NCBI RefSeq assembly: GCF_019880545.1
Contig: NZ_JAINVW010000003.1
Span: forward strand, 1,178,001-1,242,000
Direction of reading: 5' to 3'
Source: Flagellimonas meishanensis
Lineage (GTDB): Bacteria; Bacteroidota; Bacteroidia; Flavobacteriales; Flavobacteriaceae
DNA length: 64,000 bases
The position numbers and the translations under genes are program-made. Below the pieces are notes generated by a model. The model saw nothing but the letters and a program-made list of their open reading frames with translations. It did no database searches and was not told the origin of the DNA. Below, piece by piece: positions 14,993 through 47,675 of this stretch (position 1 is the first letter of the stretch; every line of letters begins with the position of its first letter).

Positions 14993-16309
14993 TCAATTTC
15001 CCACAAAAGTGGTGGCCAGGGAGAGTATGTAGGCATTGAGCCCATCACTGCGATCATATTTACTGAAACGTAGGTCGACCGCTTTAAATCCGAAACCAAA
15101 AATGGAGGTGTTCTGAAAAATATCCTTGTACTGGACACCCATGCCAAATTGATGCGCTTCGTAAGCGGATAGGTCAAAATCCGAGGTGTAAAACTGAAAC
15201 GTGGAAAGTGCCTCTTCTTTTTCATAAAAATAATCCGCCCGTGTTTGCGTGTAGTACCGATAGGTGGGATATAGGGTAAAACTGTTGGATACCTTCAAAG
15301 GCACCTCCAAACTGGCGGTATGTGAGGTAATGCCCCAATCATCCCAATAAAATCTGTAGTAGGATCGCAATACCACCACATCGTTCAGGAAATAGTTGAG
15401 ACGACCCCCAAAAGGTACCTTAAATCGACTATCGGGCAGACGTTCCACGTCATCCGCCAATTGAAAATCATCAATAAAAAAATCTCCCACATCACCAAAA
15501 TATACCCTTTGGAAGGGGGTGCTAAGCAAACCATTCTGTGAGACGAAATCCATAAAAAGGGCCCCTTGGAGCCGCTTTCCCAGAATCTGCGAAATACTTA
15601 ATGAAAGGGAATAGGAGTTTCGCTGTTCCTTGTCAAACTCAACAAAATTGGGATTGTAGGTGCCAATCCCCATTATCCGGTCATCAAAAAACCCCTCGCG
15701 GAGTTCAATGGGATAAATGGTTTTCCACGAATCAAGAAAAACCTGTCCCCCCAAAGATATTTCAGTGTTCTTTTCATTGAACAAGCGTGTATAGCTTCCA
15801 CCAAAACCAATGGAAACATAGTCATACTCAGATGAAAAATAACCATTTGCGGTCCAAATCGCATTTCGGTCGTCCGAACTGTGCTGATAGGTTGGATTAA
15901 TGTAGGCCAGCATATCTTTTCTGGACTCTCCGGAGGATGCATCAAAAGGGTTGGCCCCCAATCCGCCGTCCAAGGGATTCACATTGCTGGACGATGCCGA
16001 GGTATAGGCTGATAGGCCAACATCCACTGTCAACATATCATCTTCGTTGATTGGCATGCGCAATACAATGGTCGAAGTGGCATCGGTAAGAGCTTCGGTG
16101 CCCTCGCCCCCGGTCACCGCGGCGTGCACCCCGTCTTGATCATAATAACTGAACAATAAATCGATCTCACTGGATTCCAATACCTTTTTTTTATAGCTGG
16201 TATCCCCCTGTTGGGACCAAATACCGAAGCATGCCAAAAAGCAACATAGTGATGCAATCACATGTCGGCTCGCTCTGAGTGTGTCTTTTTTGAGGTATGA
16301 AGTATTCAT
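14993..16309 (-). CDS. DUF3570 protein, predicted outer-membrane beta-barrel
   Basis: 438 residues from the Met at 16309; an open frame upstream runs through the neighbouring lipoprotein gene and is not coding. A signal peptide (about 12-33, ending FGIWSQ) precedes a body of alternating aromatic/polar strands consistent with a 14-20-strand barrel; the C-terminus is ATTFVGN. The DUF3570 family is repeatedly found beside DUF4266 and ApbE. Here it is the last of five same-strand genes (Rieske, thioredoxin, ApbE, DUF4266, DUF3570), starting 5 bp after DUF4266. It may form the outer-membrane component of a redox system; function is not established. Confidence 0.85.
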   Translation of the reverse strand: MNTSYLKKDTLRASRHVIASLCCFLACFGIWSQQGDTSYKKKVLESSEIDLLFSYYDQDGVHAAVTGGEGTEALTDATSTIVLRMPINEDDMLTVDVGLSAYTSASSSNVNPLDGGLGANPFDASSGESRKDMLAYINPTYQHSSDDRNAIWTANGYFSSEYDYVSIGFGGSYTRLFNEKNTEISLGGQVFLDSWKTIYPIELREGFFDDRIMGIGTYNPNFVEFDKEQRNSYSLSLSISQILGKRLQGALFMDFVSQNGLLSTPFQRVYFGDVGDFFIDDFQLADDVERLPDSRFKVPFGGRLNYFLNDVVVLRSYYRFYWDDWGITSHTASLEVPLKVSNSFTLYPTYRYYTQTRADYFYEKEEALSTFQFYTSDFDLSAYEAHQFGMGVQYKDIFQNTSIFGFGFKAVDLRFSKYDRSDGLNAYILSLATTFVGN

Positions 16310-16313
16310 TTTG

Positions 16314-16523
16314 TCAATTACAGCCGCAACCGCCTCCTGTTTTGCCCCCGTTGGCCCCGGAAGCGCCTTCCCGGTATATCTGGAAGTTGGTCTCAAAGCG
16401 TTCGCAAACTTTTGCGCCCAATTCCATTTCCGTATCGTTAAGGTAGACTTTTTCATACTCCCTAACCACCACGCAGGAGCTTGCAAAAAGTAGTATGAAA
16501 ATGAAGACCACAAACTTATCCAT
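16314..16523 (-). CDS. DUF4266 lipoprotein
   Basis: 69 residues: lipobox ASSC (Cys17), a short helical segment (YEKVYLNDTEMELGAKVCER, the last with Cys40) and a Gly-rich tail, EGASGANGGKTGGGCGCN, ending in Cys66-Gly-Cys68-Asn. The tail is the signature of DUF4266. The partial SGA core resembles the sites that ApbE flavinylates, but the acceptor Thr/Ser position is Asn here. Encoded between ApbE and DUF3570 with 5-10 bp gaps, so certainly one transcript. Probable roles are a small redox or metal-binding carrier in the periplasm; this is inference. Confidence 0.85.
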   Translation of the reverse strand: MDKFVVFIFILLFASSCVVVREYEKVYLNDTEMELGAKVCERFETNFQIYREGASGANGGKTGGGCGCN

Positions 16524-16532
16524 AGGTTGAAT

Positions 16533-17525
16533 TTACTGATTTGTATCAAAAATAATCCCTGAACTGCGATGTATTTTGTTTTCCGAGTCCACAACCACCA
16601 CTTCCACACCATCCATTTGGTTGATCAAATGTATACCTGTGTCCTTGCCCATAATGAAAACTGCTGTGGCAAGGGCATCACAAAGTTCGGCCTGCTTTGC
16701 AAAAATGGTGACACTATGTATTCCGGTGGTGGGATAACCGGTTCTTGGGTCTATGATATGCGAATACTTTTTCCCGTTCAGCATAAGGTACTTTTCATAA
16801 TTCCCAGAAGTGGCAACGGACGACTCCACCACGGGCAACCAGCTGAAAACCTTATCCTTGCTCAATGGATTAGCTATGCCAACCAGCCATTTTTCCCCAG
16901 TGGACTTGGTGCCCCAAGTGGTTAAGTCTCCCGAGGCATTTATAATCCCCCCTTTCACCTGTTTGGAAATCAGAAGTTCCTTCGCCTTATCGGCCGCGTA
17001 ACCTTTTCCTATGGCACCAAACCCGATGCGCATGCCCGGTTCCTTCAAAAAGACGGTTTTTTCCTTTTGGTCCAATATAATATTGGAATGACCTACTTTG
17101 GCCACGGATTGTTTTATCTGCTGTTCGGATGGCATTTTGTCCATAGACCCATCAAACTTCCAAATGTGGTCCATCGATGCATAGGAAATATCAAAAGCGC
17201 CATCCGTTATTTCAGAAATTTTCTTGGAACGTTCAATTAGGTTGAAAAGTTCTGGACTGACCTTTACTGGTACTATCCCAGCATTTCTGTTGACTTTTGA
17301 AGTTTCTGAATCATCATCCCAGGATGAAATCAACTTTTCTATACGTTCAATCTCCGAAACGGCCTCATCAATATTTATATATCCGATCTCCTCATTGGGA
17401 GCGACCACGGTTATTTCGAACCGGGATCCCATGAGCTTCAATGTTTTTTTTACGGTAACGTTGCCCTCCTGCCCATGGGACATCAAAATAGCAAGGCAGC
17501 ACGAAAGGACACAGAGCGATTTCAT
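16533..17525 (-). CDS. apbE: FAD:protein FMN transferase
   Basis: 330 residues with an N-terminal signal peptide (about 1-19). ApbE takes FMN from FAD and attaches it to Thr/Ser of extracytoplasmic target proteins, using Mg. Family motifs are present in order: GAFDIS (109-114), GFGAIGKGYAAD (168-179), INASGDL (195-201), HIIDPRTGYP (256-265) and LCDALAT (281-287, Asp283 as Mg ligand). The start codon overlaps the stop of the thioredoxin-like gene by 4 bp. No Rnf, Nqr or NosR subunit with an obvious flavinylation site is next to it, so the target is likely within this cassette or elsewhere. Confidence 0.95.
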   Translation of the reverse strand: MKSLCVLSCCLAILMSHGQEGNVTVKKTLKLMGSRFEITVVAPNEEIGYINIDEAVSEIERIEKLISSWDDDSETSKVNRNAGIVPVKVSPELFNLIERSKKISEITDGAFDISYASMDHIWKFDGSMDKMPSEQQIKQSVAKVGHSNIILDQKEKTVFLKEPGMRIGFGAIGKGYAADKAKELLISKQVKGGIINASGDLTTWGTKSTGEKWLVGIANPLSKDKVFSWLPVVESSVATSGNYEKYLMLNGKKYSHIIDPRTGYPTTGIHSVTIFAKQAELCDALATAVFIMGKDTGIHLINQMDGVEVVVVDSENKIHRSSGIIFDTNQ

Positions 17526-17959
17526 TGCAGGAAACTGTTCAGAAGTGCTATGTATTCCTGAGGAGAGGATTTGGCATAAAAACTGGTCTGTCCCAAGACC
17601 AACTGTTTCTTGTCCAACATCACCACAAGTGGAAAGTGTCCTTTGGAGTTAAATTTTTCCGCCAGCGATTTGTTGCTATTCAACTTATTCTCGGACAATT
17701 GGTTTTTTTTCCTTCTTGGGAAATCGGCGTTGTACAATATATAGTGGGATGTCGCATAACTTTTGAAGGTATCCGTATCCAGAATGTGCTTCTTGAGACG
17801 GATACAGGGCGCGCACCAGTCGGAACCTGAAAATACGAGTACAATAGGTTTGCCCTCTTCATTGGCCCTTTTCAAAGCGGTTTCAAAGCTTTCTTGCCAT
17901 AATTGTGCGTGGATAGTACCTACACAAAGGAGACATAGTATGGACAAGAACTTTTTCAT
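17522..17959 (-). CDS. Exported thioredoxin-like protein
   Basis: 145 residues: signal peptide (about 1-19, ending IHAQ) and a thioredoxin fold with the active site WCAPC (Cys49, Cys52) and the cis-Pro region GHFPLVVMLD. Members act in the periplasm as disulfide reductases or in cofactor/metal insertion. Its place between Rieske and ApbE genes, overlapping the latter by 4 bp, suggests it keeps the Cys residues of DUF4266 (GCGC tail) or another cassette protein reduced. Inference from position. Confidence 0.88.
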   Translation of the reverse strand: MKKFLSILCLLCVGTIHAQLWQESFETALKRANEEGKPIVLVFSGSDWCAPCIRLKKHILDTDTFKSYATSHYILYNADFPRRKKNQLSENKLNSNKSLAEKFNSKGHFPLVVMLDKKQLVLGQTSFYAKSSPQEYIALLNSFLQ

Positions 17960-17976
17960 TCTAATGGGATCATGGG

Positions 17977-18417
17977 CTACTCGAACACCCGAAGGATGGA
18001 ACCTTCCAGTTCCAAATTGTACACTTTTATGGGTCTTGCAGGATTGCTGTCTACTTGGTTCAAAGGGGTCCCATCCTGTGCAAACCGCGAACCGTGGACA
18101 TCACAATAAAAAATGCCCCCCTCTTGGTTCACAAAACGGACCTGATCATAGGATTGATGACTACACACCTGGCTTGCGGCCACGAATTCACCTTCCAGAT
18201 TTTTGGCCACCACAACCAAGTTTTTAAGTATGAAGCCTCCGTTGGCATTTAGAGGTTGGGCTTCTGCCGAATCAAGGTCTATGGTGAAGTCCACCCCAGT
18301 GGGTTCCTCCACAATATCTCCATTTACTTCGTCTTTCGAACAGCCTTGTAAACATGGAAAAGTAAGGGCAAACGCAGCACCGGCACCCAGACTTCGTAGA
18401 AATTCTTTTCTTTCCAT
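17977..18417 (-). CDS. Rieske [2Fe-2S] protein, probable lipoprotein
   Basis: 146 residues. N-terminus MERKEFLRSLGAGAAFALTF is a signal followed by LQGC (Cys26, possible lipobox). The Rieske ligands are complete: Cys85-x-His87 (VCSHQSY) and Cys105-x2-His108 (YCDVHGSRF), binding a [2Fe-2S] cluster. Similar small Rieske proteins serve as electron carriers rather than bc1 subunits. First gene of the five-gene cassette, 17 bp before the thioredoxin-like gene. The 46-bp gap to purM upstream is too short to exclude read-through. Confidence 0.92.
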   Translation of the reverse strand: MERKEFLRSLGAGAAFALTFPCLQGCSKDEVNGDIVEEPTGVDFTIDLDSAEAQPLNANGGFILKNLVVVAKNLEGEFVAASQVCSHQSYDQVRFVNQEGGIFYCDVHGSRFAQDGTPLNQVDSNPARPIKVYNLELEGSILRVFE

Positions 18418-41754: not shown

Positions 41755-42630
41755 CTACAGATTGTCCAAGCAGTAATCCAGAAGCTCAACCCCGGCTGTC
41801 GGGCTAGGCTCTAAATCAACGACCACATTGCCATTGGCGGAAGTGACTTGGGCAGAAACTTCTTCGTCAAATGAACCGGAACTGAAGATAATAGATATAA
41901 CCTCAGTGTCTGCAGAAATATCAAAAGTAAAACTAGCACTTCCTCCAGTTTCAAAAGTATAATTTGTTGTCTCACCATCGATGGTTATGTCCAGGCTAGC
42001 TCCGTTCCAGCCATCACCAAATGAATCCTGCATTTCAATGGACCATGTTCCAGGTGTTGGTGTGGTTGGAGGACAAACAATGGTTGCCAAATAATTGAAG
42101 GGAGCTTGAAAAAACGATCCTCCCGAAATGTTCGCTGCCACATCAGTATTGGTAAAGGATCTTCCATCTGTAAGGTTCGCAACCAGCCGGATGTTCACCT
42201 GATCTCCCCCAAAAATATCGTCTGGATCATTGGGTATACCCAAAACATTCAAAACCTCTTGATAAACCAAGGATACTGTGGCCCTTGGCAAACCAAAAGG
42301 CCCTGTGGAAAAACTAGTCGCCGGAACTGTCGTGAACAAAGTTTCTGTACTGGTAACTTCACCATTGAATTCATTGTTGTCCACAAAATTTACGTAGATA
42401 TCCACATTGGAAAGCAATCCTCCGTTTTCTTCATCTTGATATTCCATGGTTAGTGTCCAAGGAGAGCTTGGGTCGAAAATGTTGAATGAATTGGGATTAA
42501 CATTGACAGTTCTAATAATGGCTCCCCTTTCAACATTGGGCAATAGAATATCGATGGTTTTATCATCGTCACTACAAGCCATCACAAGGAAGGCCAAAGC
42601 TCCAATTAAATAGTTTTTTATTTTTTTCAT
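41755..42630 (-). CDS. SusCD-associated lipoprotein with SFGDGWNG domain
   Basis: 291 residues from the Met at 42630 (MKKIKNYLIGALAFLVMACS; lipobox VMAC). The N-terminal half resembles beta-sandwich domains found in SusE-position lipoproteins; the C-terminal part (about 195-275) carries DSFGDGWNGASLDITIDG and reads as an extracellular, Asp-rich, probably Ca-binding beta domain. Third gene of the SusC-SusD transcript, 35 bp after SusD, so probably a surface glycan- or peptide-binding partner. The specific ligand is unknown. Confidence 0.75.
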   Translation of the reverse strand: MKKIKNYLIGALAFLVMACSDDDKTIDILLPNVERGAIIRTVNVNPNSFNIFDPSSPWTLTMEYQDEENGGLLSNVDIYVNFVDNNEFNGEVTSTETLFTTVPATSFSTGPFGLPRATVSLVYQEVLNVLGIPNDPDDIFGGDQVNIRLVANLTDGRSFTNTDVAANISGGSFFQAPFNYLATIVCPPTTPTPGTWSIEMQDSFGDGWNGASLDITIDGETTNYTFETGGSASFTFDISADTEVISIIFSSGSFDEEVSAQVTSANGNVVVDLEPSPTAGVELLDYCLDNL

Positions 42631-42665
42631 GAAATTCATCATTTTATTGTTATTGAAATTCTCGT

Positions 42666-44384
42666 TTAGTTTGCAGGTGGCCCATCTGTATTATCCCAGA
42701 AAACCGGTTCCGCATTGGTTGCCTTTTGCGTGGAATTGGAGTTCGCGTTGACGGATACCGCCGGATAATACATGGAACGCATGAAATTTCCGGGGTTGGC
42801 GTCCTGATTGGGCTGCAATGTAGTAGGAGCGCCTGTTCTGCGGTAAAAATTATAGGGATCCACCCCGTTTCCATAGAATCCAATAAGTACCTGTTCACCG
42901 AGGATGTCCCATTGAGTTCCATTGTCCGCTGTGTCGAAATCATTTATCACTCCGGTTACGTAACTAGTGACATCCGAGTCCGACGGCTCAAAAGACTGGT
43001 CTGCGAATTGGTCCAAGCCACCAAAAGAGCGTACTTTTTCAATTTGAGTTGCCATAGCCTGGTTCAATAAAGTACTTGCCTCAGTAGAATTGCCAGCTAC
43101 CAAAGCCATTTCAGCTCTCCAAAAATCCACCATAAAAGATGTCATTATTGGGGTGATTCCCGCACCATTACCTCCGAAGGACGAAGGGTCCGACGGCTGA
43201 GCTATTTCAGTAAAAGTACTGTCATCAAAGCGACCACCAACTGGGTAAACGCCCCATGTGGCACGTAACAAACCGTCTGGTGGAATCCCCTGTGAATCTC
43301 CATGGTCTCTCCCCCAATAACCGTTGTCCAACCAGCAGAAGGTGAATCCACCGGCCACATAGTGGGCTGGCGGTTGTTGTAAAGAACACCTTAAAGTTTC
43401 TTCATTGGGTTCAATTTCTGCACCGGGCACAGCTGGAGTTTGACGATAGATATAATATCTTAATCTAGGATCGTCAGTGGTATCCAACTGGTTCATGAGC
43501 CAGTTCGACATATAGTCCGTTCCTCCACCCGCTGTGTAGTTTATACCATATCTTGGATGTCTGGTATCCGGATTGGTAGCGCTGGTAGCGGTCCAATTCC
43601 ATTGAAAGTCATCGGCAGCATCCTGAATATAGTCACCTGATGCTATAATTGCATTGAAACTAGTTGCCGCATTGCTATCCACCAAGCGCGTGTTCAAATA
43701 GAGCCTTAACTTTAAGGTATTTGCCGCCCTGACCCATTTACCATAGTCGTTTCCATAAAAGAAGTCGTTGGTTGGGTCTGAAATTGGGCTGCTATTGAAG
43801 TTTGCTATGGCTTGATCAAGCAAAGCGAAGGCTGCCTGATAGACCTCAGCACCGGCATCGCGAACTGGGTTTTCAATTCCATCCGTTTCCAGTCTAGCGG
43901 CTTCGGTATAAGGGATATCCCCAAAAAAATCAACCAATGAGGTAATCAAATAAGCCTCGATGAATTGCGCTATACCAATATGTCTGGTAAAACCGGCCTC
44001 TTCAGCCAAAGGAGTCATTATACGAATGTCCTGGATAATTCCCCTATACGCATTGGTCCATTCATCATCAAAAACATTACCTTGAAAACTGCTTTGATAA
44101 TTGCTGGCCGTTGCATTGGTAAAACTTGTCATACGGGTCAATTCCATACCGATTATGTTCAACCCATCATCTCCAGTGGTAAAATTATCCTCTGTGACTG
44201 CAGTTCCATCCAGGTGTCGCACAAAATCCTCTTGGATCGCAGTCAAAAAAAAGTCAACATCTGCTTGCCCGGGCACCAAAAAATTGGGGTCTTTGGTGAT
44301 GTCCAACTCCACTGTTTCACATGAAGTGATCAGCAATATGCAGCAAGACCAGAATGCATATAAATATTTGTTCAATTTTTTCAT
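42666..44384 (-). CDS. SusD/RagB-family nutrient-binding lipoprotein
   Basis: 572 residues from the Met at 44384 (MKKLNKYLYAFWSCCILLIT; lipobox ITSC). TPR-like helices of the SusD-like type (AYRGIIQDIRIM; ANTLKLRLYLNTRL) match SusD-like_2. SusD proteins sit on the outer face, capture oligosaccharides or peptides and close over the SusC channel. GDIPYTEAAR and the YFYGNDYGKWVRAANTLKLR-type block are family features. It follows SusC by 18 bp. Confidence 0.94.
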   Translation of the reverse strand: MKKLNKYLYAFWSCCILLITSCETVELDITKDPNFLVPGQADVDFFLTAIQEDFVRHLDGTAVTEDNFTTGDDGLNIIGMELTRMTSFTNATASNYQSSFQGNVFDDEWTNAYRGIIQDIRIMTPLAEEAGFTRHIGIAQFIEAYLITSLVDFFGDIPYTEAARLETDGIENPVRDAGAEVYQAAFALLDQAIANFNSSPISDPTNDFFYGNDYGKWVRAANTLKLRLYLNTRLVDSNAATSFNAIIASGDYIQDAADDFQWNWTATSATNPDTRHPRYGINYTAGGGTDYMSNWLMNQLDTTDDPRLRYYIYRQTPAVPGAEIEPNEETLRCSLQQPPAHYVAGGFTFCWLDNGYWGRDHGDSQGIPPDGLLRATWGVYPVGGRFDDSTFTEIAQPSDPSSFGGNGAGITPIMTSFMVDFWRAEMALVAGNSTEASTLLNQAMATQIEKVRSFGGLDQFADQSFEPSDSDVTSYVTGVINDFDTADNGTQWDILGEQVLIGFYGNGVDPYNFYRRTGAPTTLQPNQDANPGNFMRSMYYPAVSVNANSNSTQKATNAEPVFWDNTDGPPAN

Positions 44385-44402
44385 TGTTATCAATTTTGTT
44401 TT

Positions 44403-47400
44403 TTAAAATGTTGCTTTTATACTAAGTCCGTATCTTCTTGAACTGGGCCCATTGATAAAATCAAAGCCCTGTCCATTCCCGACACCCAATCCCGCAGTGT
44501 TTGGGTCGAAATTGGCTCCCTTGGGTGTATTAAAAGCTCGAAACCAAAGGTTCTGGCCAGATACCGTAAACGTGAGTCCCCCAAAGGGCGTTTTGTCCAA
44601 AAACTTTTTGGGCAACGAATAGGCCAAGGAGGCCTCCTGAAGTCGTAGGGTTGTAGCATCGTATACCTGCAGCTCACTAGGACCAAAAAGTACATTTTGA
44701 AAAAAGAAATCCGAATTGTTTATCTGAAACCTATTTGGGTTTCCATTTAAATCCACCCCTGGAATGACATAGGTGTTTTCCCTGTCATTGGTTTCGGGGA
44801 TGAGCCCTCTTCCCAATAAAGTGGCTATTGTTGACGAATAAATATCCCCTCCCTGCGTATAGTTCCATTGGAAACCCAGTGTGAAATTTTTATAAGAAAG
44901 TGAATTGATGATATTTGCAACCCAATCCGGATTGGGGTCTCCAATTATCCCATCAGTAGGGTCTTGTACGTACCAACCATTGGTTCCAATTACGGCATTT
45001 CCGTCATCATCCCTCAGAATTCTAGTTCCGAAAAATGCACCCAACGGCTCCCCTTCTATTGCAGCATTCCCTAAATTGGAAAACCCAGAGTATACTACCA
45101 AATCAGTATCCAAACCGAGGTCAGTGACGGTAGTTTCATAAGCGGTGAAATTCAAATTTGTCCGCCAATTAAACTCCCCATCATCCTTGGCCCTAAACCA
45201 ATTCACTCCCAAATCAATCTCAACACCTTCCGATTCTATTTCTCCAATGTTTGTAGCAATCACCGTATTTCCGGTAGCTGGCTCCAAAGGTCTATCCAAT
45301 ATCAGGTCGGTGGTGAAACGTTTGTAAACTGAACCTTCCAAAGTAATGCGGTTGTTCCAAAAACGGGATTCAATTCCCAATTCAATCTCGTTCAACACTT
45401 CTGGTCTTAAATCAGGATTTCCAAAGCGATCCGGGGTCGAGTTGGCTACCACATTTTGTCCTGAACTATCCTGGGTTTCCCTAACATTAAGACTCAACGT
45501 ACTGGCTATTGGGAAAGGTGTTGATTCAAAATTCGCGGAAGACCCAAAACCTGCCCGTATTTTCAGGTAATTCAATACATTTTCAGACTTGAGCCCGTCG
45601 AAAGCAGCCGTTGGAATGAAGGACAAGCTCGCACTTGGATAAAATTGTGCTTGGTTGTCTCTAGCAAAGTTGGATACCCAATCATTTCGAGCTGCAAAGG
45701 TTATGTACAAGAAATTATCATAGTCAAAATCTGCCTGGGCGTAGACACCCACCAAATTCCTCTCTGTAGTACCTTGGATCGGCAAAGAATTAAGAAAGTT
45801 GAAGTGCCTTAACACCCCGAAGGCTTGTTGGTTGTCACTTGCAACGCCGATCCTGTTAAAAATCTCTCTCCTTGATGTGGCTCCCACATTGAAGGTGGCT
45901 CCAACTTTTTCAGTGATATCGTAATCTCCGTTGAGCACCAAGTTATGGTCCCAAATTGTATTGGTGTTGTTCCAGGTTTCGTAGAATCCACTTAGCAGTC
46001 GAACATCGTTACTGTTGCTGTTTACACCTCCTTTGTTTTGAAAATTAGCATTGTTCTCGCTGTAAACATCAATTCCAGCCCTGTAGATCAAATTCAGATT
46101 GTCATTGATATCGTATTGCAAAGAGGCTTGTCCAAACACTCGATTTGTTTCCTGGGAAAATTCTGCATTGGCAATGGTCCATAGCGGATGTTGGATGGTA
46201 TTATCCTGTCGATAATAAACACTTCCTCCCGTAATGGGGTCTTCAAAGGGTAGACCTTGCACATCAATGCTTCTAGGGGTAAACCAAAGATCGCCAAATA
46301 CGGATGACCCTGTTCCAGTAGCGCCACTTCCATTACTTAAAGCAACAGGCGGGCTAATGAATTTGCTTCTGGAGAAGTTCAACGTTCCACTTGCTGTAAA
46401 CTTATTGGACAGCTTTGCGCTACCCCCAATACCTAAGGTATTTCGTGTAACCGAGTTATTCGGTGTAAAACCATTATCCTTAAGATGGCCATAATTAACG
46501 TTGTACGAAATTTTTCCATCGTCTGAGCCGCCTCGAACATTTACATTAAAGGTAGAAACACCTCCTGTTCTGAAAAACTGGCCCACGCTATCATATGGTC
46601 TCCACTCGTATCGTTGTCCTTGAAACTCCGGAAATGCAGCTTGGATTGCTGTGGTTGAGGTCGAATAAGGATGCGGTAAGGTTCCATTTTCATCTATGGC
46701 TGCTTGGTTGCCCCATCCAGCAACACCATCTCTTCTGAAGCTTGGACCCCAGTTGCTGAAAAACCAACCGAAACTTTGGTCGAAACCGTTTCCATATTCG
46801 TTCTGATAATCCGGAAGTGATGCGATTTCGTTAAAAAAGAAAGAGCTATTTACGGTTATTTCGGTCTTTTTAGGTCCGGTTCGGGAACTGCCCCCTTTAG
46901 TAGTGATCAAGATGACACCGTTTCTTCCCTGCGAACCATAAAGTGTTGCCGCGGCAAGTCCTTTAAGTACATTGACGCTCTCAATACTATTGGGATCCAA
47001 ATCCAGAAAGCGACTGGATCCATTGTTGCCATTGATAAAATCTTGACGGGATCCACCAGGGGCCGCGCTATCCGTACCTCCATTTCTTCCTGATGAGTTG
47101 GTAGCTGTGCTAAAAGGAACACCATCAACTATAAAAAGAGCTTGATTGTCCGAGCTAAAAGAAGACAGTCCACGAATCACCACGTTGGTTCCAGAACCTG
47201 AAAGCCCACTCTGATTTGTGATCTGAACCCCCGAAGCCTTTCCTTGCAGTACCCTGGCAACATCCCCTTCGGGCCTTGATTCCAGTTGGTCCTCACTTAC
47301 TTCTGCCACGGCGTATCCCAGTGCCTGTTTTTCCCTTTTAATGCCCAAAGCGGTAACAACAACCTCTTCCAAAGCCTGTGCATCCTCTTCCATTTGAACA

Positions 47401-47675
47401 TTAATAATACTCTGGGCACCTACCGTTCTTTGCTCCACCTTTTGACCTATATATGTAAAAAGAAGGGCTTGTCCTTCACTGGCTGTAACAGTATAGTTCC
47501 CGTCAAAATCCGTTTGGGTTCCAGTGTTGGTTCCTTCTACTACAATGTTTACCCCGGGCAACGGAAGGCCATCTTGGTCAGTGACCGTACCAGTGATTGT
47601 TTTTTCTTGGGACTGTGCAGATGCAAAGTAAAACAGCATCAAAAAAAGTGTCCCAAACAGTTTCTTTACTTTCAT
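44403..47675 (-). CDS. SusC/RagA-family TonB-dependent transporter
   Basis: 1090 residues: signal peptide (about 1-22), CarboxypepD_reg-like domain (about 25-105; ITGTVTDQDGLPLPGVNIVV), TonB box-like EEVVVTALGI, plug domain (about 115-240; VLQGKASGVQITN, SVNVLKGLAAATLYGSQGRN) and a 22-strand barrel to the C-terminal RYGLSIKATF. It imports nutrients held by the SusD partner using TonB energy. First gene of a three-gene transcript with no linked glycosidase, peptidase or ECF/anti-sigma pair, so its substrate cannot be inferred. Confidence 0.96.
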   Translation of the reverse strand: MKVKKLFGTLFLMLFYFASAQSQEKTITGTVTDQDGLPLPGVNIVVEGTNTGTQTDFDGNYTVTASEGQALLFTYIGQKVEQRTVGAQSIINVQMEEDAQALEEVVVTALGIKREKQALGYAVAEVSEDQLESRPEGDVARVLQGKASGVQITNQSGLSGSGTNVVIRGLSSFSSDNQALFIVDGVPFSTATNSSGRNGGTDSAAPGGSRQDFINGNNGSSRFLDLDPNSIESVNVLKGLAAATLYGSQGRNGVILITTKGGSSRTGPKKTEITVNSSFFFNEIASLPDYQNEYGNGFDQSFGWFFSNWGPSFRRDGVAGWGNQAAIDENGTLPHPYSTSTTAIQAAFPEFQGQRYEWRPYDSVGQFFRTGGVSTFNVNVRGGSDDGKISYNVNYGHLKDNGFTPNNSVTRNTLGIGGSAKLSNKFTASGTLNFSRSKFISPPVALSNGSGATGTGSSVFGDLWFTPRSIDVQGLPFEDPITGGSVYYRQDNTIQHPLWTIANAEFSQETNRVFGQASLQYDINDNLNLIYRAGIDVYSENNANFQNKGGVNSNSNDVRLLSGFYETWNNTNTIWDHNLVLNGDYDITEKVGATFNVGATSRREIFNRIGVASDNQQAFGVLRHFNFLNSLPIQGTTERNLVGVYAQADFDYDNFLYITFAARNDWVSNFARDNQAQFYPSASLSFIPTAAFDGLKSENVLNYLKIRAGFGSSANFESTPFPIASTLSLNVRETQDSSGQNVVANSTPDRFGNPDLRPEVLNEIELGIESRFWNNRITLEGSVYKRFTTDLILDRPLEPATGNTVIATNIGEIESEGVEIDLGVNWFRAKDDGEFNWRTNLNFTAYETTVTDLGLDTDLVVYSGFSNLGNAAIEGEPLGAFFGTRILRDDDGNAVIGTNGWYVQDPTDGIIGDPNPDWVANIINSLSYKNFTLGFQWNYTQGGDIYSSTIATLLGRGLIPETNDRENTYVIPGVDLNGNPNRFQINNSDFFFQNVLFGPSELQVYDATTLRLQEASLAYSLPKKFLDKTPFGGLTFTVSGQNLWFRAFNTPKGANFDPNTAGLGVGNGQGFDFINGPSSRRYGLSIKATF

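Follow-up and report, generated by a model that had tools for sequence, protein, structure and literature searches.

Gene clusters in which ApbE, the flavin adenine dinucleotide (FAD):protein flavin mononucleotide (FMN) transferase, is encoded together with proteins of the DUF3570, Thioredoxin_7 and DUF4266 families (DUF, domain of unknown function) are the closest described relatives of the locus considered here. According to the main text of Meheust et al. (2021, PMC8238504), the DUF4266 proteins of these clusters end in a C-terminal CXC, and 316 such clusters lack DsbD; published flavinylation clusters often include DsbD, and VIT1 is found in 25 of them. The ApbE of Chlorobium luteolum flavinylates the DUF3570 protein of that species, replacement of both [S/T]GA[S/T] serines was required to abolish the modification, and the expressed protein was mostly insoluble, which is compatible with a barrel (PMC8238504). 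In that text, two [S/T]GA[S/T] motifs are conserved in DUF3570 but do not strictly define it. We found the same four genes, with DUF4266 ending in CGCN (a CXC), in a five-gene cassette on the minus strand (18417-14993) of a 64,000-nucleotide stretch of Flagellimonas meishanensis DNA (contig NZ_JAINVW010000003.1, positions 1,178,001 to 1,242,000), which we call the window. The four-gene core is thus already published; what is additional here is a linked Rieske lipoprotein. The cassette also differs from the published clusters in that DsbD is unlinked and both DUF3570 sites depart from [S/T]GA[S/T].

To our knowledge, the conduits described so far for electron transfer across the outer membrane depend on multihaem cytochromes. 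We tentatively propose, with somewhat less than even confidence, that the Rieske-bearing variant of the ApbE/DUF3570/thioredoxin/DUF4266 module serves as an outer-membrane electron conduit that works without haem. While DUF3570 is still unassembled in the periplasm, ApbE would link FMN to its Ser106 and perhaps also to Ser129; DUF3570 would then fold as an outer-membrane barrel of ~16 strands carrying the flavins in its second outer-side loop. The thioredoxin (WCAPC) and the CGC tail of a periplasm-facing DUF4266 would pass electrons to the loop flavins, and a surface-exported Rieske protein would exchange electrons with them outside. The direction of flow and the substrate are guesses, iron or another metal seeming the likeliest candidate. 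A more specific version, which we regard as doubtful, holds that covalent FMN on an outward barrel loop (a “flavin porin”) would hand electrons to a surface Rieske protein, that ApbE would accept the clade-specific sequences TSAS and SGES, and that in cousins of the barrel the same loop would hold a flavin motif and, after it, a poly-aspartate stretch that binds metal.

The likeness to the porin-cytochrome conduits (MtrCAB, Pcc) lies in an outer-membrane barrel that is linked with redox carriers. Those systems are recognized by multihaem CxxCH motifs, whereas here the predicted carrier is a covalent flavin: CxxCH occurs neither in the five cassette proteins nor in 53 non-overlapping open reading frames (ORFs) of at least 90 residues selected from the window. 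The ext cluster of Geobacter, as described in PMC5877670, has a porin and a Rieske gene, like the cassette, but its Rieske protein sits with cytochromes b and c, whereas the cassette is free of haem motifs. If our proposal is true, flavin and [2Fe-2S] would take the place of multihaem cytochromes in outer-membrane electron transfer. A flavinylated barrel with a surface Rieske protein would be a different conduit solution, present in every searched genome of one genus, and the reading would assign a function to two DUF families. The cassette and its features are the following.

17977-18417, minus strand: Rieske [2Fe-2S] lipoprotein, 146 residues, first cassette gene (PF00355)
18094-18165, minus strand: Rieske ligand segment C85-x-H87 ... 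C105-x-x-H108 (CSHQSYDQVRFVNQEGGIFYCDVHGS)
18325-18342, minus strand: Rieske mature N-terminus C26-S-K-D-E-V, which fits C-X-K-(D/E)2-X (PMC5080379)
17522-17959, minus strand: Thioredoxin_7 protein, exported, 145 residues (PF13899)
17804-17818, minus strand: thioredoxin active site WCAPC (W48-C52)
16533-17525, minus strand: ApbE, FAD:protein FMN transferase, exported, 330 residues (PF02424)
16314-16523, minus strand: DUF4266 small lipoprotein, 69 residues, mature start CVVVREY (PF14086)
16317-16328, minus strand: DUF4266 C-terminal tail C66-G-C68-N, candidate thiol pair, invariant in 53 aligned copies
14993-16309, minus strand: DUF3570, predicted outer-membrane beta-barrel (AlphaFold), 438 residues, predicted ApbE substrate (PF12094)
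15914-16003, minus strand: DUF3570 loop 103-132 between strands 3 and 4, with both putative attachment sites (model and loop-length rule)
15992-16003, minus strand: site 1, T103-S104-A105-S106 (TSAS), candidate FMN-bearing Ser106 (from S106 conservation)
15923-15934, minus strand: site 2, S126-G127-E128-S129 (SGES), with D123 three residues before S126 (from the alignment)

The coordinates and Pfam matches bear out five genes in the order Rieske > Thioredoxin_7 > ApbE > DUF4266 > DUF3570, as a preliminary description of this DNA had listed them. Scores exceed the family cut-offs throughout: 30.8 versus 20.3 bits for Rieske PF00355, 52.9 versus 27 for Thioredoxin_7 PF13899, 291.7 versus 25.6 for ApbE PF02424, 70.4 versus 27 for DUF4266 PF14086 and 127.5 versus 25 for DUF3570 PF12094. 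The set is operon-like, with intergenic gaps of 17, -4, 9 and 4 bp; the spacing given earlier (5-17 bp or a 4-bp overlap) holds for the first three and not for the last. ApbE, which had been called intact, matches over 265 of 266 profile positions, and HIIDP, ATSGN and KG, which we take to be its active-site motifs, are seen by eye. The Rieske CxH...CxxH site, WCAPC and the DUF4266 CGC tail are likewise present as claimed. The DUF3570 start was refit to 16309, matching relatives, as the listed 539-residue ORF begins too early. Export signals of the five products were assessed by eye and by a regular expression only, the lipobox expression being crude. Judging from the proteins that they encode, the flanking genes are purM, 46 bp upstream of the cassette, and prfA, 65 bp downstream of it.

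In the 3.2-Mb genome there are one DUF3570, two ApbE, one DsbD_TM and one Rieske match, the last being the cassette protein itself, and TatC is present. The only DsbD_TM match lies ~0.5 Mb from the cassette on the same contig, and so the cassette is not classed as a DsbD system sensu stricto. The single FMN_bind protein is encoded on another contig, where the second ApbE gene lies ~3.6 kb away, which leaves no other FMN_bind target near the cassette ApbE. The preliminary description had both DUF families as uncharacterized and no ApbE target present; on both counts it is corrected by the flavinylation of the Chlorobium DUF3570, a published ApbE substrate (PMC8238504).

Gene content and conserved order are firm, computed results. 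DUF3570 is present in 39 of 59 genomes searched, comprising all 36 of the same genus (our own included) and 3 of 23 others, and this presence, with the Rieske linkage in 69 of the 80 best relatives, makes the cassette more than a chance arrangement. The 214 loci that we surveyed consist of the 80 best relatives of the window DUF3570, 94 loci spread over the family (DUF4266 was found in 98 of 249 genomes; 97 of 99 places were fetched, 94 with a recognized DUF3570) and 40 stretches chosen from a phylum search that was positive in 113 of 395 genomes. They are not independent, in that 80 are closest relatives and five pairs share an identical DUF3570. A Rieske gene is linked in 94 of the 214, or 89 of 209 after removal of duplicates: 69 of the 80 best relatives, 19 of the 94 family-spread loci and 6 of the 40 from the phylum. 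The order is exactly Rieske-Trx-ApbE-DUF4266-DUF3570 in 93 of these 94 clusters (Rieske is second in locus L199), and Thioredoxin_7 is linked in all 94, with WCAPC in 70 copies. Thus, the conserved linkage of Rieske and ApbE with DUF4266 and DUF3570, on which the earlier account depended, is upheld.

Among the 69 Rieske-linked best relatives, purM stands alongside in 68 and prfA in 67. The 11 best relatives without a linked Rieske gene include three on short or truncated contigs (L013, L026, L046) and seven four-gene clusters (L077-L083). One of the latter, from Maribacter litopenaei, has an ApbE frame broken into several ORFs (L077:4781-5763), with DUF4266 and DUF3570 open, and in a metagenome-assembled genome the Rieske place is taken by an unrelated lipoprotein ORF that matches no Pfam family (L049:1408-1960), the DUF3570 site 2 of this genome being SGQS. 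Rieske-less four-gene clusters also lie between purM and prfA in L122, L179 and L205, and after purM in L150; the shared site suggests that the operon is older and that gain or loss of the Rieske gene took place at its front end. In a tree of 92 ApbE rows, the flavobacterial Rieske clusters form nearly one clade and those from other families of the class fall in another. Rieske linkage changes 6 times on this tree, compared with a mean of 28.9 after shuffling; the tree is weakly resolved, 31 of its 84 inner branches being open. The notion that Rieske and DsbD are strict alternatives is unsupported, as many flavobacterial clusters have neither.

We aligned 215 DUF3570 rows, of which 88 were left after thinning to <70% identity. 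In these 88 divergent copies, S106 and A105 are each conserved in 87 and S129 in 82, which places the two serines firmly among the most conserved residues, and the site-1 Ser is kept in 214 of all 215 rows. At site 1, Ser frequently stands in place of the motif Gly, the sequence being TSAS in 167 of 215 rows and SSAS in 30. The residue three before site 1 is Asp in 46 rows, as in the full flavinylation consensus D-x-x-[S/T]-G-A-[S/T] (PMC12052999), and Ser in 169. In one enzyme, according to the same review, changing the motif Ala to Val or Gly to Ala roughly halves flavinylation and changing Thr to Ala abolishes it. Site 2 is SGAS in most relatives; E, D or Q is found there in 63 rows, 62 of which have D123. 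Since the SGAS relatives L075 and L184 already carry the Asp, D123 probably preceded the change in site 2. Most simply read, these data make S106 the likely main flavinylation site here. By analogy with the published relative, DUF3570 would be flavinylated in this organism as well, likely at S106, and S129, which has not been lost, may still be an attachment site. [S/T]GA[S/T] is entirely absent from 94 of the 215 rows, all of which a search restricted to the published motif would overlook, and a question of ApbE specificity is raised, namely whether ApbE modifies TSAS and SGES.

Four ApbE positions (57, 278, 299 and 310) discriminate 60 rows from the E/D/Q clusters from 31 from SGAS clusters. 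Co-adaptation of ApbE to SGES was considered, and the pattern looks like shared ancestry: L075, L138 and L184, which have SGAS in the same clade, already agree with the SGES rows at 299 and 310. A tie between SGES and recruitment of the Rieske gene was rejected, as SGAS is found in 31 Rieske-linked copies and SGES on its own in the Rieske-less L141. In L214, L215, L231 and L234, DUF3570 has D-x-[VI]-S-[AS]-A-S sites (three in L214), outside [S/T]GA[S/T], with ApbE downstream.

The AlphaFold model of DUF3570 (58 sequences) has a predicted local distance difference test (pLDDT) score of 83.6 and a predicted template modeling score of 0.77, and by our count from its DSSP line it contains ~16 strands. 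Long loops follow odd strands (60-73, 103-132, 196-228, 261-293 and 356-382; three others have only 3-4 residues), and the turns after even strands are mostly 2-5 residues, with one longer. OmpG is the top Foldseek match, VIA-align gives Z values of 21.4 for a BamA model, 19.0 for PgaA and 16.6 for OmpG, and the barrel matches are collinear with DUF3570 from about residue 40 to 438; searching solved structures with the DUF3570 and DUF4266 sequences returned nothing credible. The prediction is thus of a closed antiparallel outer-membrane barrel of ~16 strands. The model and its structural matches support the earlier description of the cassette as an extracytoplasmic redox set that ends in an outer-membrane barrel. 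If both barrel ends are periplasmic, the usual loop rule would place loop 103-132 on the outer side.

The optimal surface-export signal measured in Capnocytophaga, a flavobacterium, is C-X-K-(D/E)2-X (Lauber et al., PMC5080379). The mature start of the window Rieske protein has this form, whereas that of DUF4266 has no such signal. C-x-K-[DE][DE] is found in 36 of 94 linked Rieske proteins versus 0 of 207 DUF4266 proteins and 1 of 136 other lipobox ORFs, and at least two acidic residues at +2 to +6 in 74 of 94, 1 of 207 and 42 of 136, respectively. By this rule the Rieske lipoprotein may lie on the cell surface, outside the outer membrane; the case is good in the window's clade and weak beyond it.

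Several points weigh against the conduit. In a genus-spread subset, the exact signal is found in 5 of 19 Rieske proteins versus 1 of 60 other lipobox ORFs, and at least two acids in 12 of 19 versus 23 of 60; outside the family the counts for Rieske are 0 of 6 and 2 of 6. The Rieske signal has RK, not RR, and it is difficult to see how an Fe-S protein, once folded, would get through the outer membrane. Further, ApbE being periplasmic, an outer loop would have to be flavinylated before assembly. Loop 103-132 has pLDDT values <50 at 105-107 and 124-128, making it the least certain part of the model, and it may fold into the barrel lumen. Site 1 (SAYTSAS) and site 2 (DASSGES) in the window contain no canonical [S/T]GA[S/T]. 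Finally, no Rieske gene is linked in 120 of 214 clusters, and so Rieske is not essential to the module.

The same module could operate with a periplasm-facing Rieske protein as the electron input, which would be reduced by quinol or by a donor in the periplasm and would do the work of the DsbD found linked in other phyla. We consider this rather unlikely. In its favor, DsbD, often present in the published clusters (PMC8238504), is not linked here, and this is the only Rieske protein of the genome, hence not a bc1 subunit; the Tat-like RKxFL start in 87 of 94 linked Rieske proteins (Tat, twin-arginine translocation) also suits a folded periplasmic protein, TatC being encoded. But the mature N-terminus fits the surface-export signal and that of DUF4266 does not, and there is neither a transmembrane anchor nor a linked quinol-oxidizing subunit. 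The electron-transfer route from the inner membrane to a barrel that was suggested in the preliminary description keeps its barrel end, while the surface-like signal would place the Rieske protein outside the outer membrane and away from the inner-membrane end. The same description proposed that DUF4266 is perhaps a flavinylated or metal-bearing shuttle, an idea to which we give very little credence. The CGC tail and a Gly-rich GANGG segment are invariant in 53 aligned copies, and the CXC pair could bind metal. However, DUF3570 is the substrate tested in the main text of PMC8238504, and the DUF4266 segment has Asn where a linkable Ser/Thr would be needed, the residues before it varying among S, A and V. 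The AlphaFold model of DUF4266, mostly unstructured with a pLDDT of 57.7, is uninformative.

Alternatively, DUF3570 could be an iron uptake or efflux barrel, whose flavins would serve iron assimilation by reducing Fe(III), without any connection to outside acceptors; we think this unlikely. VIT1 iron-transporter genes lie at most three genes away in 9 of 217 loci (identified by Pfam for L080 only and by similarity for the other eight), two of them Rieske-linked (L218 and L219), and a ferritin gene lies beside L078. These neighbors suggest iron as substrate, for the conduit as well, and an iron barrel would also fit the 25 clusters with VIT1 of PMC8238504. Runs of at least four Asp/Glu are present in the flavin loop in 19 of 215 DUF3570 rows, an extra [S/T]GA[S/T] motif standing a short way before the run in 18, and each run may plausibly be a metal-binding segment beside the flavin. 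Runs of at least five are found in 16 loops; outside the loop, which makes up much the smaller part of the protein, they are found in 3 proteins. Against an iron barrel, the acidic runs occur in no Rieske-linked copy, the window's included, and the window cassette and its close relatives are flanked by purM and prfA, with no iron gene.

The cassette Rieske protein can be placed among known types by its ligands and neighbors. Rieske subunits of bc1 and b6f complexes have an extra disulphide Cys pair beside the ligands and a linked cytochrome b. The window protein differs, having no Cys between its ligand pairs and purM and the thioredoxin as neighbors. Dioxygenase-type Rieske ferredoxins are cytoplasmic. 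They are the closest solved sequences (PDB 2e4p, E 2.8e-4) and share CxH-CxxH without the disulphide pair, but they have no lipoprotein signal, whereas the window Rieske is a lipoprotein. Of the 94 linked homologues, 93 retain the full set of four ligands, and one (L222:3776-4273) has lost the second Cys. The slot is filled by either of two Rieske subtypes, CSHQSYDQVRF...CDVHGS as in the window and CSHQQTEEVRF...CSTHGS as in L005, L014, L017 and others.

In the open-access literature, we found no paper that joins Rieske, ApbE and flavinylation (subscription papers and the PMC8238504 supplements were not covered), and both DUF3570 and DUF4266 turned up in PMC8238504 alone. The words Rieske, porin, outer-membrane (hyphenated) and Bacteroid are absent from the main text of that paper, its supplementary tables lying outside this check; “outer membrane” is used once, on TonB receptors. 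The surface lipoprotein-barrel complexes of Bacteroidota described in PMC12578637 are alike in that a barrel gene is linked with a surface-signal lipoprotein. The examples known there are transporters, whereas the cassette pairs a Rieske lipoprotein with a barrel that is predicted to be a flavoprotein.

Asp/Glu runs of 4 to >10 residues lie between the attachment sites in L146, L205, L140, L185, L162, L145 and 13 other loci, and second, Rieske-less copies in Flagellimonas relatives (L086, L088, L101, L102, L108 and L109) have acidic runs of at least three. Elsewhere in the window, 42666-47675 and 41755-42642 encode what by eye is a SusC/SusD-like pair, followed by a lipoprotein starting CSDDDKT, a likely surface-export signal.

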